Below the pieces are notes generated by a model. The model worked only from the letters and a program-made list of their open reading frames with translations. It was not told the DNA's origin and did not search any database. From positions 372,001 to 436,000 of the forward strand of contig JAOUEW010000001.1 of the NCBI GenBank assembly GCA_029858505.1: a stretch of 64,000 nucleotides of DNA, read 5' to 3'. Shown here piece by piece: positions 14,385 to 32,003 of the stretch. Within the stretch, counting starts at the first letter, position 1, and every line of letters starts with the position of its first letter. Source of the DNA: Deltaproteobacteria bacterium. GTDB taxonomy: Bacteria > SAR324 > JACQKK01. The translations under genes were made by a program, and so were the position numbers.

Positions 14385-16466
14385 TTACCGCACCGGCGGT
14401 GGGATAAGACACAAAGGCGTCCAGGGTTTCCCCCGATCCGGGCTGAAGGCAATGTTTCCCTGAAGATTGATCCAACTGTCTTCCTCCCAGTGGGAACCCT
14501 GATCGAAGGTGCGGTAGACCATGCCCCCATACCCGATGTTATTTTGGTCGAAGGGCAGCAGGGTGACCCCCGAGGAGATGTCCCACGCCTGAAAAAAACA
14601 AATGCCAGACAACACGTTGGTCCAAACCGTGGAGGAGGGGGCCCATGTTTTCGAACGATAGAGGCCCACCTCTGAAATGCCATTGCCTGAAATCCCCACC
14701 AGGGTTTCCCCATCGCTTGTGGCATGCATGCCATGAACAAATCCCTGGCGGGAGGTGACGATGGTGTGTTTATTTGCCCAACTGGCCCCGGAATCGGTGG
14801 ATTCCCAAATATCCACGGCGCCATAACCGGGGTAATTCATCCCGGTTCCGCCCCAAATCACCCCGGGGGCGGGGGAATAAAAACGAGAAAGGTAAAAAAA
14901 ATAACTGATGGTATGGGTGACAGCCCAGCTGGAACCCGCGTCGGTAGACCGCCAAATGCCTCCGTTGGCGGCCCCCGCCAGCAGGGTTCCGCTGCAGACT
15001 TCGAACAAGTCGTAGACCTGTGCCACCCCTGGGGCCAGCGAGCAGACGGTGGCAAAGGATATGCCGCCATCGGAAGAGCGTTGAATGACCGCTTGGCCAG
15101 ACCCGGAAGAGGGGGGCCCCGCCAGAACCAAGCCGCCCCCAGACAACACCCGCAAGGCACTGCCGAAATGGGACAGGGGGTTGAAGAACCCCGCGGAATC
15201 GGTGCGGAACAAGCGAGGCCCCCCCAACAGGCTGCCCAGGGCCACAAAGTCTTCCGACCCCACGGCTTGCAGGGTGTGGGGCCACAGGGCGGCAGAGGCC
15301 ACCGTGGAAAGGTACTCCCAGCGCGGATGGAAGGCCTCGGTCAGCGTCAGCGCGGTTTGCCCCCCCGCCAAGTCAATCTCCATGCCGCTGACCCTGAGCA
15401 ATGCCTGCCCCTGGGGGAACAACGAATGGGTCAGGGTGAGCACATCTCCCACCGAATAGGCGAACCCGAACCCCAGGGGCATGCGGGCGCGGAGGGTTTT
15501 GCCGGGGCGCCCGCCCTGGCGCAGCCTGTTTTGCACCAGCCCGTAGGCGTCTATCCCCCGGGCAAACCAGATTTGCGTCTGGCCGTATTGGTTAGAGCGG
15601 CGCCCGAAGGCTTCTACCGAGCGGGAGTTTACCCGGGTATGACTGGAGTAAAACCGCCGGGTTTGGGGCAGATACAGCACGTTCATCTGGATATCGTTCT
15701 CGACCTGGGTAGGGTCTACCGACAATTCCAGGCTGAGCAGGTCTTGGGGGTCTAGCCGGGGCGGCACGCCCAGGAAGGGAACGTTCCTGGGTTTAAAGGT
15801 CAGCCGCCCGTTGTCGAAGGCGATGGCCCGTTGGTCTAAAAAGGCCAGGTGGGCCAATACCCGGTAGAGTTTTTCTCCGGTCAACTGGGCCTGCACCCGG
15901 ATGTCTTGAATCAGGTTTTCCTGGCGCCAAGCCTGCCAGCCCGGATAGTCCAGGTCGGGGTTATTGCTGCCCGCCAGGGAAGACATTCCCCCGTATTGGG
16001 TGGTGAGCAGCCAAGCCAGGTCGGCTGGATAGTATTGGCTGCCAGTGAAGGAAAGCTCTTGAGAGGTGACTTGGCTGCCCAGGGTAATGTCGGTGAGCCG
16101 TTGGGTGGAGGCTTGCAATTGCAGCCGCAGTTCTTTTCCTTCCCGAGAAAACGCTGCGTGGCTGGGGGTGCCCTGATACAGCGGAATCCATTCTGGGCCG
16201 CTAAGCGGATGGGTTAACCCCAGACTGATTTCGCCAGGAAGGGTCAGGGCCAAGTCGCAGCCCACCAGAAAGGTAAACGGCCCCTGGTCGTTGGCCAGGG
16301 TGAGCTGGGTGGTGCCGAGGTCAATGGAGTCATCTTTGTAGGCCAGCACTGGCCAGCGCAGTACCCGGTCAGACCAGTCGCGGTCCCCCAGGGTGAACCG
16401 CCGCTGCCAGCGCACCCGCTGGCTTTTGGCGGTGGACAAAAACCAACTGGAGACGGAGGTCATCAT
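14385..16466 (-). CDS. Tail hub/tip protein fused to an Asp-box beta-propeller
   Basis: 693 residues in two parts. Residues 1-390 look like a baseplate hub or tail-tip protein (FTLGDRDWSDRVLRWP, LGFGFAYSVGDVLTLTHSLF). From about residue 400 on there are repeated Asp-box motifs, S-x-D-x-G-x-S/T-W: SSDGGISF, STDAGSSW, STDSGASW, TFDQGSHW. Asp boxes mark sialidase-like beta-propellers; the catalytic Arg triad is not evident, so binding rather than cleavage is likelier. The ATG overlaps the tape-measure stop (ATGA). It probably carries the receptor-binding part of the particle. Confidence 0.72.
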   Translation of the reverse strand: MMTSVSSWFLSTAKSQRVRWQRRFTLGDRDWSDRVLRWPVLAYKDDSIDLGTTQLTLANDQGPFTFLVGCDLALTLPGEISLGLTHPLSGPEWIPLYQGTPSHAAFSREGKELRLQLQASTQRLTDITLGSQVTSQELSFTGSQYYPADLAWLLTTQYGGMSSLAGSNNPDLDYPGWQAWRQENLIQDIRVQAQLTGEKLYRVLAHLAFLDQRAIAFDNGRLTFKPRNVPFLGVPPRLDPQDLLSLELSVDPTQVENDIQMNVLYLPQTRRFYSSHTRVNSRSVEAFGRRSNQYGQTQIWFARGIDAYGLVQNRLRQGGRPGKTLRARMPLGFGFAYSVGDVLTLTHSLFPQGQALLRVSGMEIDLAGGQTALTLTEAFHPRWEYLSTVASAALWPHTLQAVGSEDFVALGSLLGGPRLFRTDSAGFFNPLSHFGSALRVLSGGGLVLAGPPSSGSGQAVIQRSSDGGISFATVCSLAPGVAQVYDLFEVCSGTLLAGAANGGIWRSTDAGSSWAVTHTISYFFYLSRFYSPAPGVIWGGTGMNYPGYGAVDIWESTDSGASWANKHTIVTSRQGFVHGMHATSDGETLVGISGNGISEVGLYRSKTWAPSSTVWTNVLSGICFFQAWDISSGVTLLPFDQNNIGYGGMVYRTFDQGSHWEEDSWINLQGNIAFSPDRGKPWTPLCLIPPPVR

Positions 16467-19213: not shown

Positions 19214-20173
19214 TTAATATCCGGGTTGGGTGTTGACCAGGGTGGCTCGCAGGGCATACCCCAGCCCCGGGTCGAACACTCCCTTGGCCGAGAAGCTGAC
19301 TTCCAGCAGGCCTGGGCCAGACAACGCGGGCTTGAACTCGGTAAAGCGGAGCTTGGGAACGTGGAGGGTCAGTTGGTTGGTGTAACTGCCCGCCACGGTT
19401 TCTCCCGCCAGGCTGAGAGACAGGGGCCGTTCGGTTTGGGCCAAGAAATCGGAAAACAAGGCTTGGTCTTGAAACACCATGGCCCCCTGCACCGCCACCC
19501 GCTGGGGGCCGCCCCGTTTCACCCGGCTGGGCCAGCGCCCGCCGTCTAGGGTGTGGGCCAGGGCCAGTTGGTTTTCAAACCGCACCGACAACTGCCGCAA
19601 CTCGGTCACGGCCTGCCCGTTGTAGGCGGCCGAGGCCACGTCCCAAGTCCAGGGGCGCCCGGCAGGAAACACCGCCGCCGCCGGGGCCTTGCGGGAGAAC
19701 AACCCGCCCTTGACCGACAACGAGGCAGACAGCAGCTGGCCCTGGGAAATTTCCAGGCTCAGGGCATCGGCCAGCAGGTTGCCATACAAAAAAGCCGAGC
19801 CCACGTCGCGGTGAATTTCCAGGGTCATGGGGGGCAGGGCGGCCAGGGCATCCCAGTCGGTGGCGGCCGGGCGGAAGTCGTGCAAGAAGGCGGAGTTTTG
19901 GGGAGTGGTGGTGACTTGCCCCAGGGCCGCCTTCAGAAAGTGCCCCAAGGCAATGGGGTGGGCCTCGGTGTGAATTTCGCCCGCCACTTCGTGCAGTCCT
20001 TCGTGGACGGGAGATTCTGCCAGCCGCCCGTAGATGCCGCTTTCCACCACCTGGCCGATGGTTTCCATCACCGACTCGGTGACCAGCGGCAGGTAATGGG
20101 CCGAGGTGGTGAGCAGGGTGCCGAAACTGTTTTGGAAATGCAGGGCCAGATGACCCGAACGTCCGTATGCCAT
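19214..20173 (-). CDS. Phage tail tube protein
   Basis: 319 residues. N-terminus AYGRSGHLALHFQNSFGTLL resembles Mu-like/siphovirus tube proteins, and repeated beta strands follow: LSVKGGLFSRKAPAAAVFP, FTEFKPALSGPGLLEVSFSA. Such proteins stack as hexameric rings around the ejection channel. No sheath gene precedes it, so the tail is probably non-contractile. It is the main tail component by position (after gp37-like, before the chaperone). Family assignment rests on order and layout. Confidence 0.68.
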   Translation of the reverse strand: MAYGRSGHLALHFQNSFGTLLTTSAHYLPLVTESVMETIGQVVESGIYGRLAESPVHEGLHEVAGEIHTEAHPIALGHFLKAALGQVTTTPQNSAFLHDFRPAATDWDALAALPPMTLEIHRDVGSAFLYGNLLADALSLEISQGQLLSASLSVKGGLFSRKAPAAAVFPAGRPWTWDVASAAYNGQAVTELRQLSVRFENQLALAHTLDGGRWPSRVKRGGPQRVAVQGAMVFQDQALFSDFLAQTERPLSLSLAGETVAGSYTNQLTLHVPKLRFTEFKPALSGPGLLEVSFSAKGVFDPGLGYALRATLVNTQPGY

Positions 20174-20203: not shown

Positions 20204-20638
20204 TTAGCCCCGCAGTTCTGCCGCGATGCTGATTTCGTTGGTGAAGAACCAGGTGTCTCGGTCGAGGTCCCGTTGATAGGGCTGCACGGCCAGCCGCCCC
20301 AGGGTAAGTACCGTGCCGCCCAGGGTGCGGTGGCGGTTCAGCACGTCCAGCACGACTTGTTGGTGTTGGGCCAACTGCCGGGTGGCTTCCTGGCCCGACT
20401 GGCGGCTGGCGGCCTGCACATACACCAGCAGTTCCAATTTGGCCTGCCAGGGCTGGGTACCGCCCAGGGTGTGGGGGTTCACCTCCAGGCCGCCTTCATA
20501 CACCCCCACCCAGGGGGTCAAGCGGCCGTCTTTGTTCAGGGGCTCCCCTTCGCAAACGGTGAACCCGGCCGCCGTCAGGGCGGCATCGGAAGACAAGAGG
20601 GTGTACAGGGCGGCGGTGACGCTGTTCACATGGATCAT
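20204..20638 (-). CDS. Mu gp37-like tail terminator / completion protein
   Basis: 144 residues. Start IHVNSVTAALYTLLSSDAAL and the body LELLVYVQAASRQSGQEATR, then QLAQHQQVVLDVLNRHRTLG, match the size and helical/strand pattern of DUF1834 (Mu gp37-like) proteins, which join head and tail. ATG 20638 overlaps the upstream stop (ATGA), showing coupling with the gpG-like gene. Enzymatic motifs are absent. Confidence 0.65.
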   Translation of the reverse strand: MIHVNSVTAALYTLLSSDAALTAAGFTVCEGEPLNKDGRLTPWVGVYEGGLEVNPHTLGGTQPWQAKLELLVYVQAASRQSGQEATRQLAQHQQVVLDVLNRHRTLGGTVLTLGRLAVQPYQRDLDRDTWFFTNEISIAAELRG

Positions 20639-21069
20639 TTCAAAGCCTCCCGAAGGAAGTTCCGCAAGGTTTGCTGGGCCAGCTCTTCGGCCTGGGCCGG
20701 GGAGGGCAGGATGGGCCGTCGGGGCACGCCCAGCCCCTGCTGGTGGTGGGCGGCATAGGGCACCGAGTTTTTCAGCCGGGCGGCCTGGGCATCCACCGTG
20801 GTGGCGAAGCCACGACGCAGCCGACCGGTGGCTTCCAGGGGGGCGGCGGGCCAGCCCCGCCGCCGTTTGGCGGCCAGGGTGGCGGGGGCCAGGGGGGGCC
20901 ACCCGGATTCGCTGAAGCCCCCTTGGTTGGCCATGTTGTCTTGCGCCCATTGCAGCAGGGACTGAGACACCCCGGCATGAAACACCGCCATTCGGGCCAA
21001 GTGTTCCCGGCGGCGGGTCAGAGCCTTCGCCAGGGTTTCAGGATTCAACGACCATTCCAGGGTCATCAT
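20635..21069 (-). CDS. Phage virion morphogenesis protein (Mu gpG-like)
   Basis: 144 residues, helical N-terminal half (EWSLNPETLAKALTRRREHL) and a conserved W-P-P-L-A-P-x-T motif (FSESGWPPLAPATLAAKRRR) typical of phage virion morphogenesis proteins. The end, YAAHHQQGLGVPRRPILPSP, matches the family's H-Q-x-G and R-P-x-L blocks. The ATG overlaps the gp36-like stop. It probably acts in head-tail joining. Confidence 0.8.
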   Translation of the reverse strand: MMTLEWSLNPETLAKALTRRREHLARMAVFHAGVSQSLLQWAQDNMANQGGFSESGWPPLAPATLAAKRRRGWPAAPLEATGRLRRGFATTVDAQAARLKNSVPYAAHHQQGLGVPRRPILPSPAQAEELAQQTLRNFLREALK

Positions 21070-21488
21070 TCCAGGTACCCGTAGCCTCCCTGCAGGCCCG
21101 TCAGTTCTTCCAGGGCAAACACCGGGGAACGGCCAGAGGTGCTGCTCCACACCCCGCCATGGGGGCGGGCGGCAAACAGGGCCGTGCCGGAGGTGGTGAT
21201 CATGGCTTCCCGGGCATCCAGCAGTCCCCGAATGCGGGCGTCAATTTGCTCTGCCAGCGGCACGGCTTCGGCGGGGTTTTTGCCCCGTTGCAGCACCAAC
21301 AGATAGGCCAGATCCAGGGTTAAGTCCTTGGCCGTCAGGTTTTCTGGGCCAAAGGGAACCGTGAACCCCAGGGCCAGCAGAGCCTCCAACCGCAACGAAG
21401 CAAACGGCAGCAGATGGGCGCTGACCTCGGCCTCGGGGAGGCGGGTGGGGTAGCGGGCGGCGAATTCGGCATAGGTGGCGTAGGTCAT
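21066..21488 (-). CDS. Mu gp36-like head completion protein (DUF1320)
   Basis: 140 residues. N-terminal YATYAEFAARYPTRLPEAEV and LLALGFTVPFGPENLTAKDL fit the DUF1320/gp36 family, in which a Y-x-T-x-x-D/E-F start is followed by helices. It is needed to complete heads before tail joining. ATG 21488 overlaps the stop of the 991-residue glycosylation protein by one base (TAATG), so the two are translationally coupled. Confidence 0.72.
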   Translation of the reverse strand: MTYATYAEFAARYPTRLPEAEVSAHLLPFASLRLEALLALGFTVPFGPENLTAKDLTLDLAYLLVLQRGKNPAEAVPLAEQIDARIRGLLDAREAMITTSGTALFAARPHGGVWSSTSGRSPVFALEELTGLQGGYGYLE

Positions 21489-24463
21489 TAGAAGTACCTT
21501 TCTTGGAACACCTCGGTTTTTTCTTTGAGCAGCAGGCCCATCAACCGGTGGATGTCTTCGGATTCGGCAAAGCGCCCAGAGACCCTGGGCAGGGGCTGAC
21601 CGGGGCGGTCGCCCAGCCCATCTTTGAAGGCCCCCAGTTCGGCCTCGAAGGCAATGCCCCCCTGGGCCAGCAGGGCTGCCGCTTCGGAGTAGTAAGGCAG
21701 GCTGTCCAGGGCCAGGCGGGTGTGGCCCTCGGCGGTTAAGGCCCGCCACATGGCTACAATTTGCCTGGCCCTGGCCTCCATGGCGGGGGTGACCACGGCC
21801 ATGGCCCCGTCAGTCTGAGACTCTTGGTCGTAGCGGATAAGATGGGCCAAGTCGCGGATCCATAGAAACCGGCCCAGCAGCCGTTGGGGATATTTTTCCC
21901 GGTCTCGAATCATCAGCGGCAGGTTGCGGGCAAACCGCTGGCGGCGCACGGCCTCGGTTTCATACCCGTTGTGGCAAATGGCCACGTCGGGCAGCAGCAT
22001 CACCGCCCCCAGGCCTTGGTTCAATTCCCGCTCGGGGTGTTCGTGCACCACCCCGAAAAACTTCACCCCCGGAACGCGGCGGAACAGCCGGCAGGGATAG
22101 TCGGTTTTCAAAATGCCCGCGGGCTCTACGGCATAGTGGTGCTGCTTCACCGCGTATCCGGCGAAGGCGTTCGGCCGCAGGTATTTCCACAGCCGTTCGG
22201 GCCATTCCAGCACCTCATCGTCGTCCAGCCACAAAATCCAGTCGCCCTCGGCCCGGGCCAGGGTTTGGTTGCGGGCTTCATCAAACCCCGTTTCCAGGGG
22301 AGACCGCAGAGAGAATGCCTGAGCCCCGTACCGCCGGGCAATTTCCCAGGCGGGGGCGTTGGGGTCTCCCTGGTCATCCAGCCCCAGCACCAGTTGGGCG
22401 GCCATGGGTTTCACGCTTTCCAGGGCCCGGGCCAGGGTGCGGCCATGGCCCGCCGCCACCATGCACACGCTGACTGTTTCCGGGGGTGCTTGGCGGGTGA
22501 GTTTTTCAGTGGGGTTCAGGGCTTGAGAGGGCCGACCCCCCGCCTGCCAAGTCATTTGATACACCCCCAGGGGTTCTCCCAGGGGGGTAAACCCATGGGG
22601 AACCGCCAGTAAGGAAAAGCCCGGCTTGTGCCCCCACATGGTTTCCAGATCGGCCCGTTCCAGGTGGTGAATATGGGCCCGCAGGGGGCAGGTTTCAAAA
22701 ATGGCCGCCTCCCAGGGGCCGTAGGGCACGGTGAGGCACAGGGTTCCTCCAGGGGCCAGACGGCGCTCTAATTGGTCGGCCAGTTCCCAGGGGCGGGGGG
22801 TGTGCTCCATCACTTCCAGGGCCAGCACCAAGTCAAAAGTTCCCCCCAGGTTGGCGGCCTCGCCGTGGCTGAAGAACAGATGGGTCAGCCCTTCTTTTTC
22901 GGCATGGGCGCGGCCCACCGCCACCGCGGCGGCGGAGATGTCAATTCCCGTGAAGCGCAGCCGGGGAAACCGGCGGGCCAGGGCCAGGGTGAAATGCCCT
23001 TGCCCACAACCGTAGTCCAGCACCCGGGCGTTTTCCGGCAGGGCCGCCACGGGCTCTGCCGCCACCTGAAACCTGGGCATGGCCCACAGACCTTCTGGGT
23101 GAACGATGCCGGGATCTTCTCCCCCTTGCAGGTGGTGGCGGGTGAGGGCCTCGTTATGGGTCGGGTAGTTGTTGTTTTTCACAAACCCGTAATGCGTTGC
23201 TAGGTCTTGAACAACGTTTTGGCCGATGGGGCCGGTCAAACCTTCCTGGCCCAGGGGAGATTCGGCCAGGGCGGTCAGGGGGAAAATATCGGAATGGCGC
23301 AGCAGGTGCCGGGCCAGCCGAGATGGACTGGCGCACCGTTCAGCCAGGATTCGCTCCGCCAAAGAAACCATGCCGCTGGCCGAGCGAGCCCAATCGTAGC
23401 GGGGGGCGGCTTGGCGGCAGCGGCGGTGGAGGCCCGCCCATGTTTCCGGGGCTTGTTTCAACCGCAGAATTTCTTCCGCCAAGCGGGCGGCCAGGGTGTC
23501 GGGGGCCGGGTCCAGCCAAACCACCCCCCCATCCCGCAGGGTTTCCGGCAGGGCTGCTACCGGGGTGGTGAGGATGGGGGTTCCCGCCCCCTGGGTTTCC
23601 ATGGCGGTGATGCAGCTCACTTCCTCAAAGGCCGTGGGGTACAGGTGCAGCCAGGCGTTTTCCATCTGCCGGGCCAGGTCTTGCTTCGACAACGCCCCGG
23701 CCAACTCCACGTTGGGCAGTCGGCGGCAGCGCTCCCACAGGGCCTGGTACAACCCCGCCATGGCAGGGGTGGTGTTTTCATATCCAGCCACCACCAGTTT
23801 CAGTTCCGGGGCCGAGCGGGCCAGCCGCTCCATCACCCCGCCGGGGCCCACCAAATATTCCAATCCCCGCTCTGGGCGGGAGGAATACATCATCCGGCCC
23901 CCTGCCAGCCGCCGGGAGAATTCCTCTTCTGGAGTGCCAGCTTGTTGGGGCGGCAGATACAAACCGTGGTCAATGCCGTTGGGAATGACCTCCACCACTT
24001 CCGGGGAGAACCCATACACCTGAACAATTTGTTGTTGGTGAAAGGCCGAGACGGCCAGCACCCGATCTACGTTCCACATTTGCCCAGCCACCGAGGGCAG
24101 GTGGCGCTTCAGGGCCAAGTCATGGGTCCACCAAAAATTCACCTTAGAGGCATAGGGGCGGTGAAAGGCCATGGGGGCCCGCTGAATCACCAACAGATCG
24201 TGGGGAGTGTGGGAAGCGTACCATTCAAACCGCTCTCCCAGGGGGCTTTGCCCCGTGGGCGTACCCGCCGACAGGTAGCGGACCCCGTCCCACACGCCCT
24301 CTTCTTCTGGGGTAATTTGGGTGAACAGGGTGACTTGGTGGCCATGGCGGGCCAGCTCCCGGGCCGTATAATAGGCGGCACTTTCAGAACCCCCCAGGCT
24401 TTTTCCCTGGGCCAGGGTGCCGCCATGGAAGGGAATTCCGGGGCAGAGGATCACGATGTTCAT
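21488..24463 (-). CDS. Three-part glycosyltransferase (GT4) - methyltransferase - glycosyltransferase (GT2) fusion
   Basis: 991 residues. Residues 1-360: GT4-type transferase with a GGSESA nucleotide-sugar loop (KSLGGSESAAYYTARELARH) and a C-terminal E-x7-E block (FEEVSCITAMETQGAGTP). Residues about 470-620: SAM-dependent methyltransferase (RVLDYGCGQGHFTLALARRF, EVMEHTPRPWELAD). Residues 660-900: GT2 family (VSVCMVAAGHGRTLARALES, WILWLDDDEVLEWPERLWKY) with the metal-binding DDD. It lies between capsid and head-completion genes and would decorate virion protein or cell sugar. There is no signal peptide. Substrates are unknown. Confidence 0.85.
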   Translation of the reverse strand: MNIVILCPGIPFHGGTLAQGKSLGGSESAAYYTARELARHGHQVTLFTQITPEEEGVWDGVRYLSAGTPTGQSPLGERFEWYASHTPHDLLVIQRAPMAFHRPYASKVNFWWTHDLALKRHLPSVAGQMWNVDRVLAVSAFHQQQIVQVYGFSPEVVEVIPNGIDHGLYLPPQQAGTPEEEFSRRLAGGRMMYSSRPERGLEYLVGPGGVMERLARSAPELKLVVAGYENTTPAMAGLYQALWERCRRLPNVELAGALSKQDLARQMENAWLHLYPTAFEEVSCITAMETQGAGTPILTTPVAALPETLRDGGVVWLDPAPDTLAARLAEEILRLKQAPETWAGLHRRCRQAAPRYDWARSASGMVSLAERILAERCASPSRLARHLLRHSDIFPLTALAESPLGQEGLTGPIGQNVVQDLATHYGFVKNNNYPTHNEALTRHHLQGGEDPGIVHPEGLWAMPRFQVAAEPVAALPENARVLDYGCGQGHFTLALARRFPRLRFTGIDISAAAVAVGRAHAEKEGLTHLFFSHGEAANLGGTFDLVLALEVMEHTPRPWELADQLERRLAPGGTLCLTVPYGPWEAAIFETCPLRAHIHHLERADLETMWGHKPGFSLLAVPHGFTPLGEPLGVYQMTWQAGGRPSQALNPTEKLTRQAPPETVSVCMVAAGHGRTLARALESVKPMAAQLVLGLDDQGDPNAPAWEIARRYGAQAFSLRSPLETGFDEARNQTLARAEGDWILWLDDDEVLEWPERLWKYLRPNAFAGYAVKQHHYAVEPAGILKTDYPCRLFRRVPGVKFFGVVHEHPERELNQGLGAVMLLPDVAICHNGYETEAVRRQRFARNLPLMIRDREKYPQRLLGRFLWIRDLAHLIRYDQESQTDGAMAVVTPAMEARARQIVAMWRALTAEGHTRLALDSLPYYSEAAALLAQGGIAFEAELGAFKDGLGDRPGQPLPRVSGRFAESEDIHRLMGLLLKEKTEVFQERYF

Positions 24464-25543
24464 TCAGGCTCCTTCAAACAGGGGTTCCCAACATTGGGCG
24501 ATGACGTCGTTCCAGCCGTGAACTGGCAGGTCGGGGGAGCAGGCCATGGTTGGCCTGGGTTCGGGGTGGCCCGCCAAAAAATTGTGGAAATCCCAGCGAT
24601 TCGCTGCGTGTGTTTCCAGGTCGCCTAAAAAGGGCGCCACCAGCCGCGTGCCGCTCCAGGCGGCCCGCAGCAGATTCACCACCAGGGCTTCGCGGCCGCA
24701 AAGGGGGGCCGGGTGCAGCCAAAACCGGGCTTGGTGAAACGCCCGCCAAACATCCATCACGGTGGGGTCTTCCGTTTGAACAATCCCTGGCTGGACCAGG
24801 GCCTGCTCCAGGCGCGCCAGCCAGGCGGAACCTCCCTTGGCCTGGAACCCCGCCCACAACCGGCGGGGAGACACCACCTCCAGCGTGATGTGGGGGTGGA
24901 CTTGGCGGATGGAAGGCCACAGGGCCAGCAGTTGCTCCAATCCCTGGTCTGGGGGGCCAGCGAACACGGCCCGTTCAGAGACGGGGGGTTCCGCCGGCAG
25001 CAGCAGCGGCGGGGTGATGGCCAGGGGCGCCACCCGGTGAAAACGCTCCCCGCCCAAGAATGCAGCCGAAAGGGCATCCATGGCCCCGGCCCCCCAACTG
25101 GTGACGTAACGATCCACCCGGTTCATCCAGGGCTGGGGGGTGGAGATGTCTCCATGGTGTTCTGGGGCCAGTGGCTCCCAGTGAATCCGCTGGTGGGCGT
25201 TCACCGGCATGGCCCACAACCGGGGGCAGCGCCAGCTAATGAGCACATCCCTGGGCTCCTGGGGGCGAAAGGCCCCCAGGGGCAAGTATTCCACCCCATG
25301 GTGCATCCACCCGGTGCCCCGGGGGGCGTTGTGAAACACCCGCACCCGGTGGCCCCGGGCCGCCAGGGCCTGGGCCCAGTCGGACAGCAGTTCTTCCAAA
25401 CCCCACCAGCCTTGGTCGGCATCCAGGGGTGTCCACCCGCCGGGAACATACGCGCACCACACATCCACCGTTCGGGCGGGGTGCCCCGCCACAGGGCTGA
25501 CCCAGGGGCTGAAGGGAGCGGGTTGAGGCAGCAAGGTTTCCAT
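24464..25543 (-). CDS. Glycosyltransferase-like protein (GT4-type)
   Basis: 359 residues. N-terminal Rossmann-like region (TVDVWCAYVPGGWTPLDADQ, WAQALAARGHRVRVFHNAPR) and a C-terminal region with VSERAVFAGPPDQGLEQLLA, matching the layout of the larger GT4 module, then FHQARFWLHPAPLCGREALV. The Glu-x7-Glu motif is degenerate, so it may be a partner or divergent transferase rather than an active enzyme. Its TGA directly abuts the ATG of the 991-residue fusion. A 139-base gap with a strong hairpin separates it from the capsid gene. Confidence 0.65.
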   Translation of the reverse strand: METLLPQPAPFSPWVSPVAGHPARTVDVWCAYVPGGWTPLDADQGWWGLEELLSDWAQALAARGHRVRVFHNAPRGTGWMHHGVEYLPLGAFRPQEPRDVLISWRCPRLWAMPVNAHQRIHWEPLAPEHHGDISTPQPWMNRVDRYVTSWGAGAMDALSAAFLGGERFHRVAPLAITPPLLLPAEPPVSERAVFAGPPDQGLEQLLALWPSIRQVHPHITLEVVSPRRLWAGFQAKGGSAWLARLEQALVQPGIVQTEDPTVMDVWRAFHQARFWLHPAPLCGREALVVNLLRAAWSGTRLVAPFLGDLETHAANRWDFHNFLAGHPEPRPTMACSPDLPVHGWNDVIAQCWEPLFEGA

Positions 25544-25625
25544 GGGGCGGCCGTTTTAGGGTGAAAGCCAATCGTTCTGCTCTCGGCGGGGGTGGACATT
25601 CCACCCGCTCCGGCAGCAGTGGAAG

Positions 25626-25651
25626 ACCGGGGCGGAACTCCGCGCCCCGGT
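25626..25651 (-). promoter_or_regulatory. GC-rich hairpin between capsid and glycosylation genes
   Basis: ACCGGGGCG (25626-25634) and CGCCCCGGT (25643-25651) form a perfect 9-bp stem with an 8-base loop just after the capsid stop. No T-run follows on the minus strand, so this is an mRNA-stabilising or attenuating hairpin rather than a classical terminator. It would let the capsid be made in excess over the glycosylation enzymes. Confidence 0.45.
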
Positions 25652-25682
25652 TTCCATCGCCAGTCCAACAGCCCTCCAGCCC

Positions 25683-26648
25683 TTACAGCGTGCTGGAGGT
25701 AACGTTGCTCACCAAAAAGCCCAGGGGCTTGGCGGTGATCACTTCATCTTGGTAGTAGCCAATCTCGACCTCGGTGCATTTGCGCCGGGGGTCGTAGGGG
25801 TGGCGTTCCACCTGCATGTTGGGCACTTCCGAAGAACTCCATCGGAAGTTGTACCCGAAGGAGGGTGTTTCCATGCTGGGTTGGTCGGGCGCGTAATACA
25901 CCACCACGTGGTCGCCCCAGATTTGCTTCAAGTTGATGGGCAGGCCTTCCTGGGCCGTGTTGCGCCAGGCGTTGCCTACCAGCACCTTCATTTCCAGCAG
26001 GTCTTCGGCCTGGGAGACGCTGGGGTAACCGCCGCCCCCCGACACATGGGGGTTGACCGCCCGGTTGACCACCTTGGTGCTGCGGCGGAAGTGCCGCCAG
26101 GCCGTGCCAGAGAACAACACCCGGTTGGGCCGGAAGCCCGTGGCGGTCTCGACGTTGTCAACCGCCGTCAGCAGGTCGGTGAGGGGGTCGGCGTTCACGT
26201 GGTCCGTCCACGATGAGCCCACCGCTTTGAAGGACCCCACGTTGCTGGGGGTGGTGAGCAAGTCGGCCAGCCGGGTTTCCCAGTCGAGGAACAGGCCGTC
26301 TTGCAGACGCATCACCCGCCCTTCTTCAAACTGCCGAACGAACAGGGGGTCGGCGTTGGCCCGGTCTTCCAGGGTCACGTCGGACTTGAGGGCGTAGTTC
26401 ACGCAGTAAAACCCAGCGGAAGACACCCGGGTGTGGGTTTTGTTGGCCTCCCCGCCCCGGGCGCGCAGGGTGCGCTCTTGGCGGAACAAGTCGTCTTGCT
26501 CAAAAATCACGTAGGTATCGGACTGTTTGGGCACCAGCACGGTGGGCAGCACGCTGCTGGCAATGAACCCCGCCGGACGGTAGTTCAATGCCACGTTCGA
26601 CAAATGCTGGTCCACGTGCACGGCTCTTCCTTGGAGGTAATCGCTCAT
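25683..26648 (-). CDS. Major capsid protein (HK97-like, by position)
   Basis: 321 residues. Order (after decoration gene, before head completion genes) and length fit a major capsid protein. The N-terminal arm (SDYLQGRAVHVDQHLSNVAL) and LRARGGEANKTHTRVSSAGF, followed by a spine-helix-like segment (VETATGFRPNRVLFSGTAWR), resemble HK97-fold capsids. No long scaffold domain is present; the preceding protease-like gene may provide it. The ATG abuts the decoration stop (TAA ATG). Confidence 0.78.
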   Translation of the reverse strand: MSDYLQGRAVHVDQHLSNVALNYRPAGFIASSVLPTVLVPKQSDTYVIFEQDDLFRQERTLRARGGEANKTHTRVSSAGFYCVNYALKSDVTLEDRANADPLFVRQFEEGRVMRLQDGLFLDWETRLADLLTTPSNVGSFKAVGSSWTDHVNADPLTDLLTAVDNVETATGFRPNRVLFSGTAWRHFRRSTKVVNRAVNPHVSGGGGYPSVSQAEDLLEMKVLVGNAWRNTAQEGLPINLKQIWGDHVVVYYAPDQPSMETPSFGYNFRWSSSEVPNMQVERHPYDPRRKCTEVEIGYYQDEVITAKPLGFLVSNVTSSTL

Positions 26649-27050
26649 TTAGGCAAGCTCCCCGATGTGGCCCATGTAGGCCGTGGTGGCGAAGTTGAAC
26701 AGCCCGGTGCCCACGCCGCCAGAACCCACGTCGGCGTCTAGGCAGCGGCCCACCACGTAACTTCCGCTGGCGGCCTCGGAAAAATAACCGGACTGGGTGA
26801 CGGTGAGGCGGCGGCCTTTGGCCACGGGCGCCCCGGCGGTGAATTTCATCACCCCCCAGGTGCCCAGGGAAACCGGCTCTCCCGATTTTCCGCCGTACAA
26901 CAAAATGCCCCCGGCCTGGCGGCCGTTGGAGGCAATGGTTCCGGTGTCCAGCGCCACGGCTTTGAAGATGGCACCGGTGCCCGGGCGCAAATCGCTTAGA
27001 TCGCCCCCGGCCTGGATGGCCCAGGAATGGTTGTGTCCTTCCACAGACAT
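26649..27050 (-). CDS. Capsid decoration/cement protein
   Basis: 133 residues, beta-rich and glycine-rich (AIQAGGDLSDLRPGTGAIFK, GLFNFATTAYMGHIGELA). Small proteins encoded just before the capsid gene in Mu-like and related phages stabilise the shell. The segment VVGRCLDADVGSGGVGTG resembles DUF2190-type capsid proteins, in which a similar A-x-x-x-G-R-x-L-D/E motif recurs. Assigned by position and composition. Confidence 0.62.
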   Translation of the reverse strand: MSVEGHNHSWAIQAGGDLSDLRPGTGAIFKAVALDTGTIASNGRQAGGILLYGGKSGEPVSLGTWGVMKFTAGAPVAKGRRLTVTQSGYFSEAASGSYVVGRCLDADVGSGGVGTGLFNFATTAYMGHIGELA

Positions 27051-27054
27051 AGGT

Positions 27055-28068
27055 TTAGGCTCCCCAATGGGCGGTGAGGGTGTAATCCCGGTAGGCCTGG
27101 GCCAATTCCGGGTCGGTTTTCAACACCAGTTCGGCGGCCTGGCTGTAAGACAAATGCTCCGCGCTCATGCGGGCTGAAGCCAGCCGGGCCAGCCGTTGGG
27201 AGGGATCTTCATCCTCTCCGGTGAAGGCGGCGGCCGAGCGGGCCGCCCCCTGTTCTCCCGCGGGCAGCCGGGGCACGGCGCCGGAGAGAAACTCTCGCAC
27301 CCATGCCCAGGACACCCGGGGGGAATCTTGCTCGGAAAACGAGGCGGACGGGTTGTTCATTTCGGCCGCCAGTTGCTGAAACAGGTAAGGAGGCAGTTTT
27401 CCCTCCCCCACGGCTTGGCGGGCGAAGGTCAGCACCGCTTGGTGGTGGTCTGGTTCACCCTGGGCATGGAAAGCCCGCGCTTCCGTGGGGGGAGTTTGTT
27501 CTGGCCCATGGGTCACCGCCCAGGTGAAGGTTTGGACCAAGCCCCAGTCGGTGGAGGAGGGCGGTGGGGTAAGATATACCGCCAGGTCCTGAAGGTTGGT
27601 GACCGCCGGAAGGTCGGCCCCCAGCAAGGCCACTGCCTTGAGGGCTTTGCCCAGGGACTGGCCGTTTTGGCGGACCTGGGTGTAGATTTCCGCGCTGACC
27701 CGGCGGTAGCGGCCCTGGGAAATGGCTTGCCACACCACCTCGGGCATGTGGGTGAAGGACGCCATCAGTTTGTCGCCCGCCACCCACAGCCGCTCCACCC
27801 AGCCCAGGGATGGGTCCCCATCGGCTTGGCCGGTGAGGGTGGCGCCAGCCGGAGTTTGACCGACTGCGGCTTGACGAACAGATGTGGGGGCCGATACCGG
27901 TTGAGCGGGATCGTGGCCGAATTTCAACGGGGGTTTCAGCTCATCCTTCAATCGCTCGAAGTTAGCGGCCAGCTCTTCCAAATCTTGACGGGTGAAGGTC
28001 TGGCCGTTCCAGGTGCCAACGCTGAAAATTTCGGCCGATAAAGAACGGCTGGGTTGGGTGGGGGTCAT
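27055..28068 (-). CDS. Phage I-like prohead protease/scaffold
   Basis: 337 residues. The N-terminus EIFSVGTWNGQTFTRQDLEE, then ANFERLKDELKPPLKFGHDP, is the signature of Mu gpI-like proteins, in which a serine-type protease domain is followed by a helical scaffold. Residues 200-337 are helical and charged (GEDEDPSQRLARLASARMSA), a likely scaffold. The ATG overlaps the portal stop (ATGA). It should mature and shape the prohead together with the capsid. Confidence 0.78.
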   Translation of the reverse strand: MTPTQPSRSLSAEIFSVGTWNGQTFTRQDLEELAANFERLKDELKPPLKFGHDPAQPVSAPTSVRQAAVGQTPAGATLTGQADGDPSLGWVERLWVAGDKLMASFTHMPEVVWQAISQGRYRRVSAEIYTQVRQNGQSLGKALKAVALLGADLPAVTNLQDLAVYLTPPPSSTDWGLVQTFTWAVTHGPEQTPPTEARAFHAQGEPDHHQAVLTFARQAVGEGKLPPYLFQQLAAEMNNPSASFSEQDSPRVSWAWVREFLSGAVPRLPAGEQGAARSAAAFTGEDEDPSQRLARLASARMSAEHLSYSQAAELVLKTDPELAQAYRDYTLTAHWGA

Positions 28069-29312
28069 GGCTGCTCCAAGGGGATGGCGGGGGGAAGAGG
28101 CACCCCCAGCAGTTCACGGATTCGGGTTTCATCTTGGGGTTCTGGTTTTACCGCGCCAGCGCGCACCGCGTCGGTCCAGGCCCGCACCAGTTCCCGTTTC
28201 TGCTCTTCGGTATGGGGGCTGAAACGGAACCGGGGTGGTTGGGCCAGGCCGAAGTTCCACCAGGCCAACTCCTTGAACAACTGCTCGTTCAGGGTTTCGG
28301 CCAGAGTGTCGGCCAGGGCGTTCATGATCAGGAAGAAAATATCCTGATGGGTCTGGCTTTGGCTGTAACTTCCCTGGCTGCCCTGCTCCGACAGCCCCAG
28401 CAGGTTCGGCACCAGCAGGGCCTTGGCCATGGCTTTGTCTCTGGCCGCCACCGCCCGTTCAAAGGCATCGGTCGAGGGGGCGCTGACCATGGACAACTCT
28501 ACCCCCGCGGGGGTGATGAGAGATGTTTGCCCAGATACTCCCTGCATGGCGGCTTTCAGCTCTTCCCGTTCTTCGGGGGTCAGGGGGGCGGTGATTCGCC
28601 CGTGGATGAACCCGGAGGCCATCCGTTCCAGGTACAGGTTCCAGAAGGCCAGAATGTTTTCCTTGGCCCACCAGTGCCGGTAACAAGCCTTCAGGTCGGA
28701 TTCCCCGTACAGCGGGTCCACATCGGGCTGGTTCACGTGATGGATGAACCGGGCCAGGTCCAGTTCTGCCCGGGTGCTGCCCTGGTATTGCAGCAGACCG
28801 GTGCAATTGCCGTGGGGGTCGGCCTGAAAGGTGAACGATTCCGCCGGGCGGAGTTTAAGACTTTGAATGCCCCACAGGGTTTGGCCCCGCCACTCCACCT
28901 GGCCATATACTTTTTCGGTGAGGCTAAACCCGTACACCTGGCTAGAAAGCATTTGCCCCAAGGCCTGAATGAAGGACCCGGCCAGTTGATCTTCCAGCAG
29001 ATGGCGAAAGAACCCGGCGCATTCTTGATGCAGAGGGCTGTCGGCGGGGGTGTCGAAATGCCAAGCCCGCCCGGTGACCATGGCGGTTTTCAGGCGCACC
29101 AGGGCTCGAATCTGGTCGTCGGACATCATTTTTCGATACAACCGGTACCCCCGCTGGGCCACCAAGCTGTCTGGGTTCCAGCGTTCCATGGGCACTTGGC
29201 CGAAGAATCGGCCAAAGCCCCAGGCGGTTTCTCCGGGAGCCGACGGTGGCGCGGGGACTGCCGCCGGGGGGTCTCCCAGCCAGCCCCGCAGGGTTTGGAA
29301 AGTTTTAGACAT
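28065..29312 (-). CDS. Portal protein (DUF935, Mu gp29-like)
   Basis: 415 residues. Characteristic segments: IRALVRLKTAMVTGRAWHF, the conserved SLTEKVYGQVEWRGQ and ARFIHHVNQPDVDPLYGESD, with LARDK-like AARDKAMAKALLVPNLLGLS near residue 310. This is the twelve-subunit vertex through which DNA is packaged. Start ATG 29312 (MSKTFQTLRG) overlaps the terminase stop by 8 bases. Mu-like DUF935 portals fit the Mu-like head gene order seen here. Confidence 0.9.
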   Translation of the reverse strand: MSKTFQTLRGWLGDPPAAVPAPPSAPGETAWGFGRFFGQVPMERWNPDSLVAQRGYRLYRKMMSDDQIRALVRLKTAMVTGRAWHFDTPADSPLHQECAGFFRHLLEDQLAGSFIQALGQMLSSQVYGFSLTEKVYGQVEWRGQTLWGIQSLKLRPAESFTFQADPHGNCTGLLQYQGSTRAELDLARFIHHVNQPDVDPLYGESDLKACYRHWWAKENILAFWNLYLERMASGFIHGRITAPLTPEEREELKAAMQGVSGQTSLITPAGVELSMVSAPSTDAFERAVAARDKAMAKALLVPNLLGLSEQGSQGSYSQSQTHQDIFFLIMNALADTLAETLNEQLFKELAWWNFGLAQPPRFRFSPHTEEQKRELVRAWTDAVRAGAVKPEPQDETRIRELLGVPLPPAIPLEQP

Positions 29313-30564
29313 CAAGTTCACGGGACACCATGGGTTTTCCAAGGATGAATCCCTGGCCCTGCCCGGGAAGGGCGTGAACACACAAGGCCAAGGCAAACAC
29401 GCAGTCGTCGTGGCTTCCCGACGGGTGGTCGGGGCGGCCCTGGGTCAGGCGGAAGTTCTCCAGTTCCTCCAGGGTTTCCGGGTGAGGAAACAAGGTGAAC
29501 CGCCCCTGTTCCAGTTCCATGGCCAGCCGGTCTAACAACTGGCGGCGCACGGCTCCGGTAATGACCACCGGGCGGACGGGCAGCCCCTGGGCGGCCATTT
29601 CTTCGGCCACCGGGTCGCCCGCACCGGTGGCATCCACCACCAACGGCGCTTGGTTGAACCGCCGGGAGAGGTCTCCCAGGCGGCTGATTTGTTGGCGCCA
29701 AGCGGTCTGCTTGAAACGCTCGCACCAGACCCCCCGGCGGGGGTGCAGCCGGGCCACCCAGGCCACCGTGTAGTCGGCGCGGCGGGCCAGGTCTACCCCG
29801 ATGACATAGGCGCTGCCGGGCTGACCCGATGTTTCGGGCGCCCCTTGGGCCGCCTTGCGGGGCTCTCGGAAGAAAGCCCCTTCGCTCTCCACGAATTCCG
29901 CCAGGATTTCCTGGCGGAATTCTCGCTCGGGCATGTGGGATTCCATGTGGGCCAGCATGTCGCGGCTAAGCAGGGTATTCACGTGAGACGGATGGCGGAA
30001 GCTTTTCCAATCCGGCTTGCTGTCGGCTTGCCCCCAGGCGAACATTTGTTGAAACAACCCCGGCCCCTTGGGAGAGCCGATGATGAACCAGCGGGCCCCT
30101 TGGTTTTCTGCCCCCATGGGAAACAGCGTTTCCCAAAACAAAGCGGGGTCTTGCAGCACAATGCCGGCCTCGTTGATCCAGATGTAGTCGTAGCCAAACC
30201 CCGCCAGCAGATCGGGCCGCTGGGCCGAAACGAAATCGCAATAGCTGCCGCTGGGAAAATTCAACACCCGCTGGCTGGCCTGCCAGCGAAAATCGGTGCC
30301 CTCCAACAGGGGCCGGAAGTAGCGGCTGACCAGCTTGGCAATGTTGCGGTGCACAGGCTCTACCCACAGATGGCGGGAGCCGGGGTGCTCTTGCTGGGCG
30401 ATTTCAACCAGCCGAAACACGGCACCTTTGGTTCCCCCCGCCCGGCGGCCCTTGACGTACACCACGAACCGCTCTTCGGCATCGAACACTTGTTTCTGGT
30501 GGGGCAGGTAGGGCAATTCAATCCGCGTCTTTCGCGGGGTGTGTTTCTTCTCCTTTCGTTCCAT
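29305..30564 (-). CDS. Terminase large subunit (Mu-like)
   Basis: 419 residues. ATPase domain: GRRAGGTKGAV at 39-49, a Walker A variant without the classical lysine position, as in some Mu-type terminases, and YDYIWINEAG as Walker B. Nuclease domain: VIGVDLARRADYTVAW, then LVVDATGAGDPVAEEM, and SHDDCVFALAL supplying acidic metal ligands. It packages DNA through the portal. ATG 30564 is preceded by GAGG. It overlaps the small subunit by 47 bases. Confidence 0.9.
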   Translation of the reverse strand: MERKEKKHTPRKTRIELPYLPHQKQVFDAEERFVVYVKGRRAGGTKGAVFRLVEIAQQEHPGSRHLWVEPVHRNIAKLVSRYFRPLLEGTDFRWQASQRVLNFPSGSYCDFVSAQRPDLLAGFGYDYIWINEAGIVLQDPALFWETLFPMGAENQGARWFIIGSPKGPGLFQQMFAWGQADSKPDWKSFRHPSHVNTLLSRDMLAHMESHMPEREFRQEILAEFVESEGAFFREPRKAAQGAPETSGQPGSAYVIGVDLARRADYTVAWVARLHPRRGVWCERFKQTAWRQQISRLGDLSRRFNQAPLVVDATGAGDPVAEEMAAQGLPVRPVVITGAVRRQLLDRLAMELEQGRFTLFPHPETLEELENFRLTQGRPDHPSGSHDDCVFALALCVHALPGQGQGFILGKPMVSRELDV

Positions 30565-31096
30565 CGGCCTCAATCCGGATGACCTGCACGGTGTGTTCGT
30601 GGGACGGGTTGTCCTCCGCCAGTTCGGTGAGGCAATGGTTTTGGGCGGTGACGCTGCCCTGAATGGCCGCTTGATAACGGGCCAGTTTGACTTCCGCGGC
30701 CCCCAAAGCCCGGCCCCGGCGCACGGCTTGTTCCACTGCCTGCCGCAGGGCCGGGGGCATGGGCCCCCGCCAGCGCAGCTTGGCCAGAATTTCTCCCAGG
30801 TTCAGCCCGGCGGAAGCCCATTGCTCGGCCTGCCAGGCCAGGTCGTCTGGCGTCATGGCTTCCCGCGCCTCCGGTTCATCCCCCGGCTCCTGGGCGCCAC
30901 CCGCTGACTGGGGCCGTTCCGGCAGGGGGGAGGGCATGTCTCGTTCCGTCAGCACCCCGGTGGGTACGGGGTGTTTGTAAGCGTTGGATTCCAGTCGGAG
31001 GATTCCCCGCGGAGTTCTTTTTCTTGCTTTTGGTCGGGGTGCCCTTCCGGTTTCTCTCCTGCCTGTGTGATTGCCTCTGCCCTTGCCCGCTGCCAC
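30518..31096 (-). CDS. Terminase small subunit (inferred)
   Basis: 192 residues. The GTG at 31096 is preceded by AAGGAGG at an ideal 5-base distance, so this start is well supported. The N-terminal third is basic and Pro-rich (likely DNA-binding or disordered). Residues 80-165 are helical: WQAEQWASAGLNLGEILAKL, then ALRQAVEQAVRRGRALGAAE, which includes the helix-turn-helix-like segment expected of a small terminase. Assignment rests on position and layout. Confidence 0.62.
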   Translation of the reverse strand: MAAGKGRGNHTGRRETGRAPRPKARKRTPRGILRLESNAYKHPVPTGVLTERDMPSPLPERPQSAGGAQEPGDEPEAREAMTPDDLAWQAEQWASAGLNLGEILAKLRWRGPMPPALRQAVEQAVRRGRALGAAEVKLARYQAAIQGSVTAQNHCLTELAEDNPSHEHTVQVIRIEADGTKGEETHPAKDAD

Positions 31097-31138: not shown

Positions 31139-31660
31139 TTATTCCATCCAGCACACCGCCCCGCCGCGGGGCCGGGGTCGCACGTCCAGGTGCACTGTCA
31201 ACCGGGCGGGGTAACGGCCCACGCCCCCAATCTGCCTCACCTGCTGGGCCGCCCCGGCCAACTCCGCAACCTCTTCCAGGGAGCCGCAGCGGATGTCGGC
31301 CGCCATGCCCCGGGTGTGATAGGACCGGGGCCGCCCCCCCGCCAACCGGTGCCAGGGCTTGCAGTGAAACCCCGCCGCCAAGGCCAGCGGGCGGCCCAGC
31401 ATCATGCGCAGGGTTTGCAGGGCCAGCACCAGCCGGGGGTGCACCAGGGTATGGGTGCAGGTCTTGTCTCCACAGGGGCAATGGAAGGCCCCCAGGGTAA
31501 AATCATTACTTAAAGTCGTATCCAAGCCCTTGGGGTATAGCCACAACACCTCCCCATCGGGTCCTGGATCCGTCCGGGTATAGCCCGGTGGGGTGTTCCA
31601 GGAGGGTTGGGAAAGAACATGGCTCTGCTGAGAACCTTCCGAATTAAAATCATCCATCAT
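31139..31660 (-). CDS. M15-type (DUF882-like) peptidase, candidate endolysin
   Basis: About 173 residues. Zinc ligands: H and D in HTRGMAADI, and H in LTVHLDVRP, the H-x6-D...H-x-D pattern of the M15 D-Ala-D-Ala carboxypeptidase family. Preceding text TLVHPRLVLALQTLRMMLGR and PLALAAGFHCKPWHR is typical for M15A. No signal peptide is seen; as first gene of the operon it is the likely cell-wall hydrolase. The start is uncertain (31660 or 31657); an open frame reaches 31831. Confidence 0.78.
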   Translation of the reverse strand: MMDDFNSEGSQQSHVLSQPSWNTPPGYTRTDPGPDGEVLWLYPKGLDTTLSNDFTLGAFHCPCGDKTCTHTLVHPRLVLALQTLRMMLGRPLALAAGFHCKPWHRLAGGRPRSYHTRGMAADIRCGSLEEVAELAGAAQQVRQIGGVGRYPARLTVHLDVRPRPRGGAVCWME

Positions 31661-31729
31661 GTGAATGTGTTCCCCATAAAAAGGTGCGGATGACCGGAAA
31701 AAAAACGATCCAATCCCAACCAGGACAGA

Positions 31730-31741
31730 GAACATATGTTC
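31730..31741. promoter_or_regulatory. Palindrome GAACATATGTTC, candidate operator of the phage operon
   Basis: A perfect 12-bp palindrome of the form GAAC-N4-GTTC, about 70 bases upstream of the first gene of the leftward operon. This matches the SOS (LexA) box form known from Bacillus-type bacteria; whether this organism's LexA uses it is unknown. The rest of 31661-32003 shows no gene. Confidence 0.4.
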
Positions 31742-31754
31742 ACTTATCTGGCTC

Positions 31755-31776
31755 AAAAAAAACCGGAAGGTTCCGG
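31755..31776 (-). terminator. Short hairpin with T-run upstream of the phage operon
   Basis: On the minus strand: CCGGA-ACCT-TCCGG followed by eight T residues (31755-31762). The stem is only 5 bp but wholly followed by a T-run, so it could end leftward transcripts entering the operon. It would insulate the operon from upstream transcription. There is no obvious leftward gene upstream that it serves. Confidence 0.5.
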
Positions 31777-32003
31777 GAATTGCGGTTTTGGATGGCTTGG
31801 TGATGTGGGAGATTCCCCCCGATGAATACAACTATGACACAGGGAATTTAATTAATCAAGCAAAAAAGAGAACGCATGTACACCTATTTGATTGGATGAG
31901 GAAAATTGAAGGGAAGGGAAAAGTAAAATGAGGGGTTCCCGTTTTGATCATGAGACCTAATTTGCCCATAATATGGTTCTGTTCACATTCTTGAGAGCGA
32001 ACC

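Follow-up and report, generated by a model that had tools for sequence, protein, structure and literature searches.

Why should a phage-like head operon in a SAR324 genome contain, between the capsid gene and the gene of a gp36-like head-completion protein, two genes for glycosyltransferase-related proteins, and what would these proteins act on? The window (the complete stretch of 64,000 nt that was analysed, and to which all window coordinates refer) is part of a genome of 2.79 Mb in 14 contigs, and its minus strand contains a cluster of head and tail genes of about 20 kb that runs from 31831 to ~11640 (Table 1). The matches obtained for the portal, terminase, protease and capsid genes confirm the presence of a head module. 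Upon rereading the sequence we could corroborate what a first-pass annotation had described: i) the genes encoding the capsid protein, a GT4-like protein (GT4a), a fusion protein and the gp36-like protein follow each other in this order within a single minus-strand head operon; ii) the ATG of the fusion gene abuts the TGA of the GT4-like gene (TGAATG); iii) the ATG of the gp36-like gene and the TAA of the fusion gene share one base (TAATG); and iv) the fusion contains, according to Pfam, a GT4, a methyltransferase and a GT2 domain in one chain. The arrangement is not due to chance: the search for it elsewhere, which the same annotation had proposed, recovered the identical order in several viral contigs as well as in two further genera of SAR324. 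The gp36-like ORF itself had no match in Pfam or PHROG.

Table 1. Features of the head operon and adjoining cluster genes (window coordinates)
Feature	Position	Strand	Evidence and remarks
M15 peptidase, first gene of the cluster	31139..31831	-	Peptidase_M15_3 5e-11 (Pfam); adjoins atpE in G003 and G005
Terminase large subunit	29305..30573	-	phrog_2 6e-34; Terminase_6C 6e-7
Portal protein (Mu type)	28065..29396	-	Portal_Mu 5e-57
Head maturation protease	27055..28068	-	phrog_976 1.6e-32
Decoration/scaffold-like head protein	26649..27050	-	phrog_673 2e-9
Major capsid protein	25683..26648	-	phrog_1005 3e-56; identity 72-79% across three SAR324 genera
Capsid C-terminus LVSNVTSSTL	25686..25715	-	Ser/Thr end motif; candidate glycosylation site
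Structured spacer capsid/GT4a	25544..25682	-	139 bp; RNA fold z; possible attenuator
GT4a, separate GT4-like protein	24464..25543	-	359 aa; GT-B fold matches
GT4-methyltransferase-GT2 fusion	21488..24463	-	991 aa; Pfam, AlphaFold2 and conservation
Fusion, GT4 (GT-B) domain	23330..24463	-	aa 1-378; E-x7-E = E281/E289; MshA and PimA/PimB' matches
Fusion, class I SAM methyltransferase domain	22499..23191	-	~aa 425-655; motif VLDYGCGQGHF; Methyltransf_23 1.8e-19
Fusion, GT2 domain	21659..22501	-	aa 655-935; acidic D747-D749-E750 and HEHPE motifs
gp36-like head-completion protein	21066..21488	-	position; homologs at 50-56% identity
Neck / tail completion protein	20635..21068	-	Phage_tail_S 3e-9; phrog_26 1e-17; start inferred
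Tail terminator	20204..20641	-	phrog_37 0.0012; Phage_tail_U 0.001; start inferred
Tail tube protein	19214..20173	-	Phage_tube_2 6.5e-22; homologs in four other SAR324 genera

The spacer that follows the capsid stop contains hairpins (RNA fold z = -2.9 in the window, -3.3 in SAR324 genome G009 and -6.3 in G003), and these could possibly limit the expression of the enzymes relative to that of the capsid. The same spacer in G005 showed no structured fold, and a T-run terminator was sought between capsid and GT4a and not found there. Small ORFs with the start ML[TA]P, which look alike in G005 and G009, are located between the capsid gene and the next gene (L032 4920-5101 (-) and L033 3123-3299 (-)); the window has none, and several viral contigs also have small ORFs at this place. 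Further downstream, a tail protein of 693 aa (14385-16466 (-)) contains near its C-terminus four Asp-box-like repeats (SxDxGxxW type, by eye) that resemble sialidase/BNR propellers and have no Pfam match; these may be the sugar-binding-like tail domain mentioned in the first-pass annotation.

The domain assignment of the fusion rests on Pfam matches (Glyco_transf_4 1.4e-13, Glycos_transf_1 4e-8, Methyltransf_23 1.8e-19 and Glycos_transf_2 8.9e-7) and on an AlphaFold2 model that was derived from a 20-sequence alignment (mean pLDDT 90.5, pTM 0.90). The protein is conserved in five SAR324 genera and in viral contigs; in the fusion alignment E281 of the GT4 domain is invariant, and the acidic and HEHPE motifs of the GT2 domain are invariant or nearly so. 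Among PDB sequences the GT2 profile matched GmaR (1.5e-23), SunS (1.3e-22) and ThuS (3.7e-20), the next GT2 being a teichoic-acid enzyme (1.1e-6) at a distance of at least 13 orders of magnitude, and Foldseek likewise related the domain to SunS and ThuS. GmaR modifies flagellin and SunS and ThuS modify peptides, so the GT2 domain has its affinity to enzymes whose substrates are proteins or peptides, and by its profile the enzyme is of the protein-glycosyltransferase type. Nineteen of the 20 fusion members match TIGR04195, the SunS model; the GT2 domain of the window is not a member of the SunS family of peptide S-glycosyltransferases, as its score of 30.7 bits is far under the curated cut-off of 350.

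Profile and fold searches with the GT4 domain both led to MshA and PimA/PimB', and comparison of the methyltransferase domain with the PDB yielded UbiG-type enzymes and, more weakly, WbdD. Moreover, GT4 or GT2 domains are joined with methyltransferase domains in enzymes that build surface polysaccharides as well. The fusion might then alter a surface glycan of the host (O-antigen or capsule) and thereby block superinfection or change the receptor, as MshA, PimA and other GTs of that kind act on small molecules or polysaccharides and WbdD is an O-antigen capping enzyme. We consider this unlikely, because the GT2 domain is closest to protein GTs, the linkage to the capsid gene is strict (53 of 53 contigs, from the best 80 of 235 capsid relatives; see below) and a flippase or membrane partner was not noticed in an unsystematic look at the genes between capsid and gp36.

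The separate GT4a remains under the Pfam cut-off (16.6 vs 28.5 bits), and its predicted fold matches GT-B enzymes. It occurs in three SAR324 genera and in a minority of the phages, and evolves fast (dN 0.6-0.8 between genera, about 1.5 to 2 times that of the fusion). The idea that GT4a and the fusion complement each other's catalytic Glu was rejected: the second Glu of E-x7-E is absent from every GT4a copy in the alignment, but four phages with GT4a lack it in their fusion too, and a division of labour can therefore not be deduced. GT4a may, judged from its sequence, be a helper or non-catalytic subunit.

The distribution of the fusion was established with alignment-based scans; single-sequence scans of the viral contigs and genome contigs had given no match. 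Twenty-four viral contigs were found, most of them with full-length relatives (30-43% identical over the best segments), and in nearly all loci that keep upstream sequence a recognisable capsid gene precedes the fusion (in L076 a spurious reverse ORF in the gene calls fills the capsid position). The common order in the nearest relatives is: capsid, GT4a, fusion, gp36, neck, tail terminator and tube. To avoid circularity, IMG/VR was scanned with the capsid only and the best 80 of 235 relatives were taken. Within these best 80 of 235, each of the 53 loci with at least 3.5 kb of downstream sequence has the fusion on the same strand, with a start at most 1.75 kb past the capsid, so that a glycosyltransferase is encoded with virion structural genes at 53 of 53 capsid loci; 45 of the 53 contigs are, by contig names, new relative to the fusion-based scan, and a few pairs are near-copies. 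When at least 1.2 kb of downstream sequence was required from the same best 80 of 235, 65 of 66 capsid loci had the fusion and the exception ended inside a GT4a-like gene. Since it was found behind the capsid in all 53 contigs having enough sequence, the fusion gene is a hallmark of a lineage of uncultured phages, its universality holding for the near part of the capsid lineage (≥ 42% identity to the query). The genes do sit between capsid and gp36, as first annotated, but 'inserted cassette' gives a wrong impression, as this is the regular place of the fusion in its lineage.

The surroundings of the fusion vary. The gp36-like gene directly abuts it in 20 of 57 loci, and in the others there are extra genes between the two or gp36 was not recognised; L062 has two methyltransferases between capsid and fusion and L065 a CBM6 protein behind the fusion. 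Viral relatives have three other genes at or close to this position (L067 11533-12123, L066 5781-6440 and L125 3131-3805): two appear by eye to encode sulfotransferases, which Pfam did not match, and one encodes a radical SAM protein (Pfam 1.1e-11), and other chemical decoration may be involved there. L086 (Acidiferrobacterales) was excluded from the trees: only its GT4 part was matched, and the ORF aligns to neither the methyltransferase nor the GT2 motifs. Full-length fusions were not found among 50,697 GenBank phage records, and the four isolates with a distantly related capsid gave no fusion-profile match within 4-5 kb of the capsid gene. The open-access literature that we searched yielded no description of a GT4-methyltransferase-GT2 fusion or of a SAR324 GTA.

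On six long viral contigs the starts of some genes resemble, by eye, those of DNA polymerase III alpha, DNA polymerase I or thymidylate synthase, which suggests that the relatives are replicating phages and not Mu-type transposers. The earlier label 'Mu-like' applies in part: the portal domain is of the Mu type, but gene starts of the relatives are polymerase- or thymidylate synthase-like (by eye) and a transposase or integrase was not recognised in the window cluster. The GTA idea that was raised beside it fits better in view of the atpE locus in other SAR324 genera (see below). Phage glycosyltransferases that glycosylate modified DNA bases are known, according to Pyle 2024 as cited in PMC12619734, and the fusion could in principle modify phage DNA bases like these other virus-encoded enzymes. 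This appears very improbable: the gene is found in the head module and not among replication genes, its GT2 domain has affinity to peptide and flagellin GTs, and it is retained in SAR324, in whose cluster phage replication genes were not recognised.

A potential acceptor was found in the capsid protein. Seventy distinct capsid proteins of the lineage were compared, and 66 have a Ser/Thr motif at the C-terminal end (...SST, SSQ, TSV or SAQ-type tails); Ser and Thr make up 49% of the last five residues vs 14% overall. The capsids of RDJL Phi 1, KPP23, Jenst and Shrooms, where the enzyme was not found within 4-5 kb, do not have a Ser/Thr end of the SST/SSQ type. The end motif is inherited within one clade, and its co-occurrence with the enzyme, which represents a single phylogenetic event, is therefore suggestive only.

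Together, the capsid linkage, the SunS/GmaR-type GT2 domain and the Ser/Thr capsid end make virion self-glycosylation, one of the options of the first-pass annotation, the best-supported reading, with acceptor and chemistry as its conjectural part. Judging from these sequence data, the fusion is probably a virion-protein glycosylation/methylation enzyme of uncultured tailed phages that was retained in a GTA-like cluster of SAR324. Its synthesis would accompany that of the head proteins. The first sugar would be put on Ser/Thr of a virion protein, most likely the major capsid protein at its flexible C-terminus, by the SunS/GmaR-like GT2 domain; the glycan would then be lengthened by the GT4 domain and methylated or capped by the methyltransferase domain. 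The proposed start on the capsid C-terminus, extension and methyl capping follow from the protein-GT affinity, the Ser/Thr capsid tails and the C-terminal glycans of mycobacteriophages. The gene order, the domains, the capsid linkage, the protein-GT affinity of the GT2 domain, the purifying selection and the shared locus are direct results of the comparison, and from these we infer the activity of the enzyme, the acceptor, the order of the steps, the sugar and the gene-transfer function.

The named genomes that matched the fusion in the alignment-based scan were SAR324 / 'Deltaproteobacteria' MAGs. The cluster end that contains the terminase or the peptidase is located just behind hemL-atpI-like-atpB-atpE in G005, G008 and G009, and in G003 a fragment of the M15 peptidase is found behind atpE at the contig end, which makes atpE the neighbour of the cluster in four other SAR324 genera. 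In the genome that holds the window the atp genes are at ~214 kb from the cluster, hence either the cluster or the atp region has moved; an Mrr-type nuclease gene adjoins the cluster here at one end, and the genes at its other end look, by eye, FKBP-like and ornithine-carbamoyltransferase-like. An integrase, repressor, replication gene or transposase was not recognised within 11640-31831, where several genes have no family match, nor were integration or replication genes recognised in its neighbours, and the window thus contains a structural cluster without recognised integration or replication genes, as in a GTA. The SAR324 capsids form one clade (100/99), and the sister phages have the same cassette. 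In comparisons between SAR324 genera the capsid has a dN of 0.15-0.21 and a dS of about 1.0-1.2, and the fusion a dN of 0.38-0.46 and a dS of 1.2-1.6, the dS values being those of the pairs that could be measured and the other pairs being saturated; by these estimates both genes evolve under purifying selection in SAR324. Because no integration or replication gene was recognised and atpE is the neighbour in four genera, the cluster looks domesticated, and the data fit a resident, selected and vertically inherited GTA-like particle cluster. In SAR324, phage structural genes would then have become such a resident cluster and kept the enzyme.

An ordinary or decaying prophage, with the enzyme as a mere passenger, would also accommodate part of these observations: the distance of ~214 kb to the atp genes of the same genome, the five of ten family genomes (fragmented MAGs) in which neither capsid nor tail tube was matched, and the other genes that follow atpE on the same contig in G006. 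The shared chromosomal neighbour in four other genera, the intact genes with dN well below dS and the lack of a recognised integration or replication gene make us doubt it, and we give it a minor chance beside the GTA-like reading. An apparent portal pseudogene in G008 was dismissed, as its 'stops' fall in a likely misannotated N-terminal extension of the query.

In two SAR324 genomes the fusion has another position. In G009 gp36 directly follows the capsid gene, with no GT genes between, and the fusion is found on other contig(s), where its neighbours are a small ORF, the gene of an S24-type regulator and that of a cupin protein which resembles, by eye, mannose-1-phosphate guanylyltransferase/isomerase; the adjoining cupin is a point in favour of a role in host glycan modification. 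The same order of regulator, small ORF and fusion is found on a separate contig in G008, in whose genome the capsid gene was not found, and the two fusions form a clade (99/99). It had been stated beforehand that absence of the genes from otherwise identical clusters of close relatives, together with separate expression and virion proteins free of glycan, would speak against a role in the virion. G009 shows half of this absence: its cluster has no GT genes between capsid and gp36, yet the genome retains the fusion on a different contig. Either the fusion has moved in G008 and G009 and serves the particle from its new locus, or these copies have another job. The S24/cI-like regulator is divergent and upstream of the relocated fusion (L034 1100-1807 (-) and L035 4365-5081 (+)), and a Cys-containing protein of 119-140 aa is encoded directly upstream of both fusions and was found only in these two genomes. 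A relative of the regulator (36% identical; G000:C4:445331-445813) lies 9.3 kb outside the window and ~42 kb from the cluster; it is possibly a regulator.

The complete picture, in which SAR324 has a domesticated gene-transfer particle whose own three-domain enzyme, inherited from a large lineage of uncultured phages, glycosylates and O-methylates it, is advanced tentatively, as somewhat short of an even chance. If true, it would be, to our knowledge, the first GTA known to encode a sugar coating of its own capsid, and the phages would represent a lineage with capsid glycosylation as a core and not an accessory trait; documented virion glycosylation concerns a few mycobacteriophages. In what was sampled of the lineage, the three-domain enzyme occurs as regularly as the capsid gene itself, and it persists in the resident cluster of SAR324, where phage replication genes were not recognised; both point to a basic environmental role of a capsid sugar coat, unrelated to animal immunity, such as in stability, particle adhesion, or interactions with grazers or receptors. 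A candidate enzyme and a defined candidate acceptor, the capsid C-terminus, are now given.

The known system that is most similar in outcome is that of the mycobacteriophages. Glycosylated virion proteins are reported for Che8, Corndog and Myrna (PMC12363180; PMC11256854), with glycans at the C-termini of capsid and tail-tube proteins according to PMC12619734, citing Freeman et al. 2023. Both cases have phage-encoded GTs that act there, and would act here, on capsid and other virion protein, and C-terminal acceptor sites, reported there and predicted here, whereas the enzyme described here is one three-domain chain with a methyltransferase, is fixed directly behind the capsid gene, and belongs to another phage lineage and a GTA-like cluster. 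In mycobacteriophages, virion glycosylation shields the particles from antibodies. Among solved structures, SunS, ThuS and GmaR stand nearest to the GT2 domain in profile, and the former two also in fold; they are separate enzymes that act on bacteriocin peptides or flagellin, whereas the GT2 domain here is part of a fusion. The related capsids (24-28% identical) of Roseobacter phage RDJL Phi 1, Pseudomonas phage KPP23, Arthrobacter phage Shrooms and Brevibacillus phage Jenst differ in having neither a fusion-profile match nearby nor the SST/SSQ-type end. With RcGTA-type gene transfer agents the SAR324 cluster shares the head-tail composition, the lack of recognised replication and integration genes and, in four genera other than that of the window, a common host locus beside atpE; it differs in being described at the level of genes and in carrying a glycosylation enzyme within its head operon.
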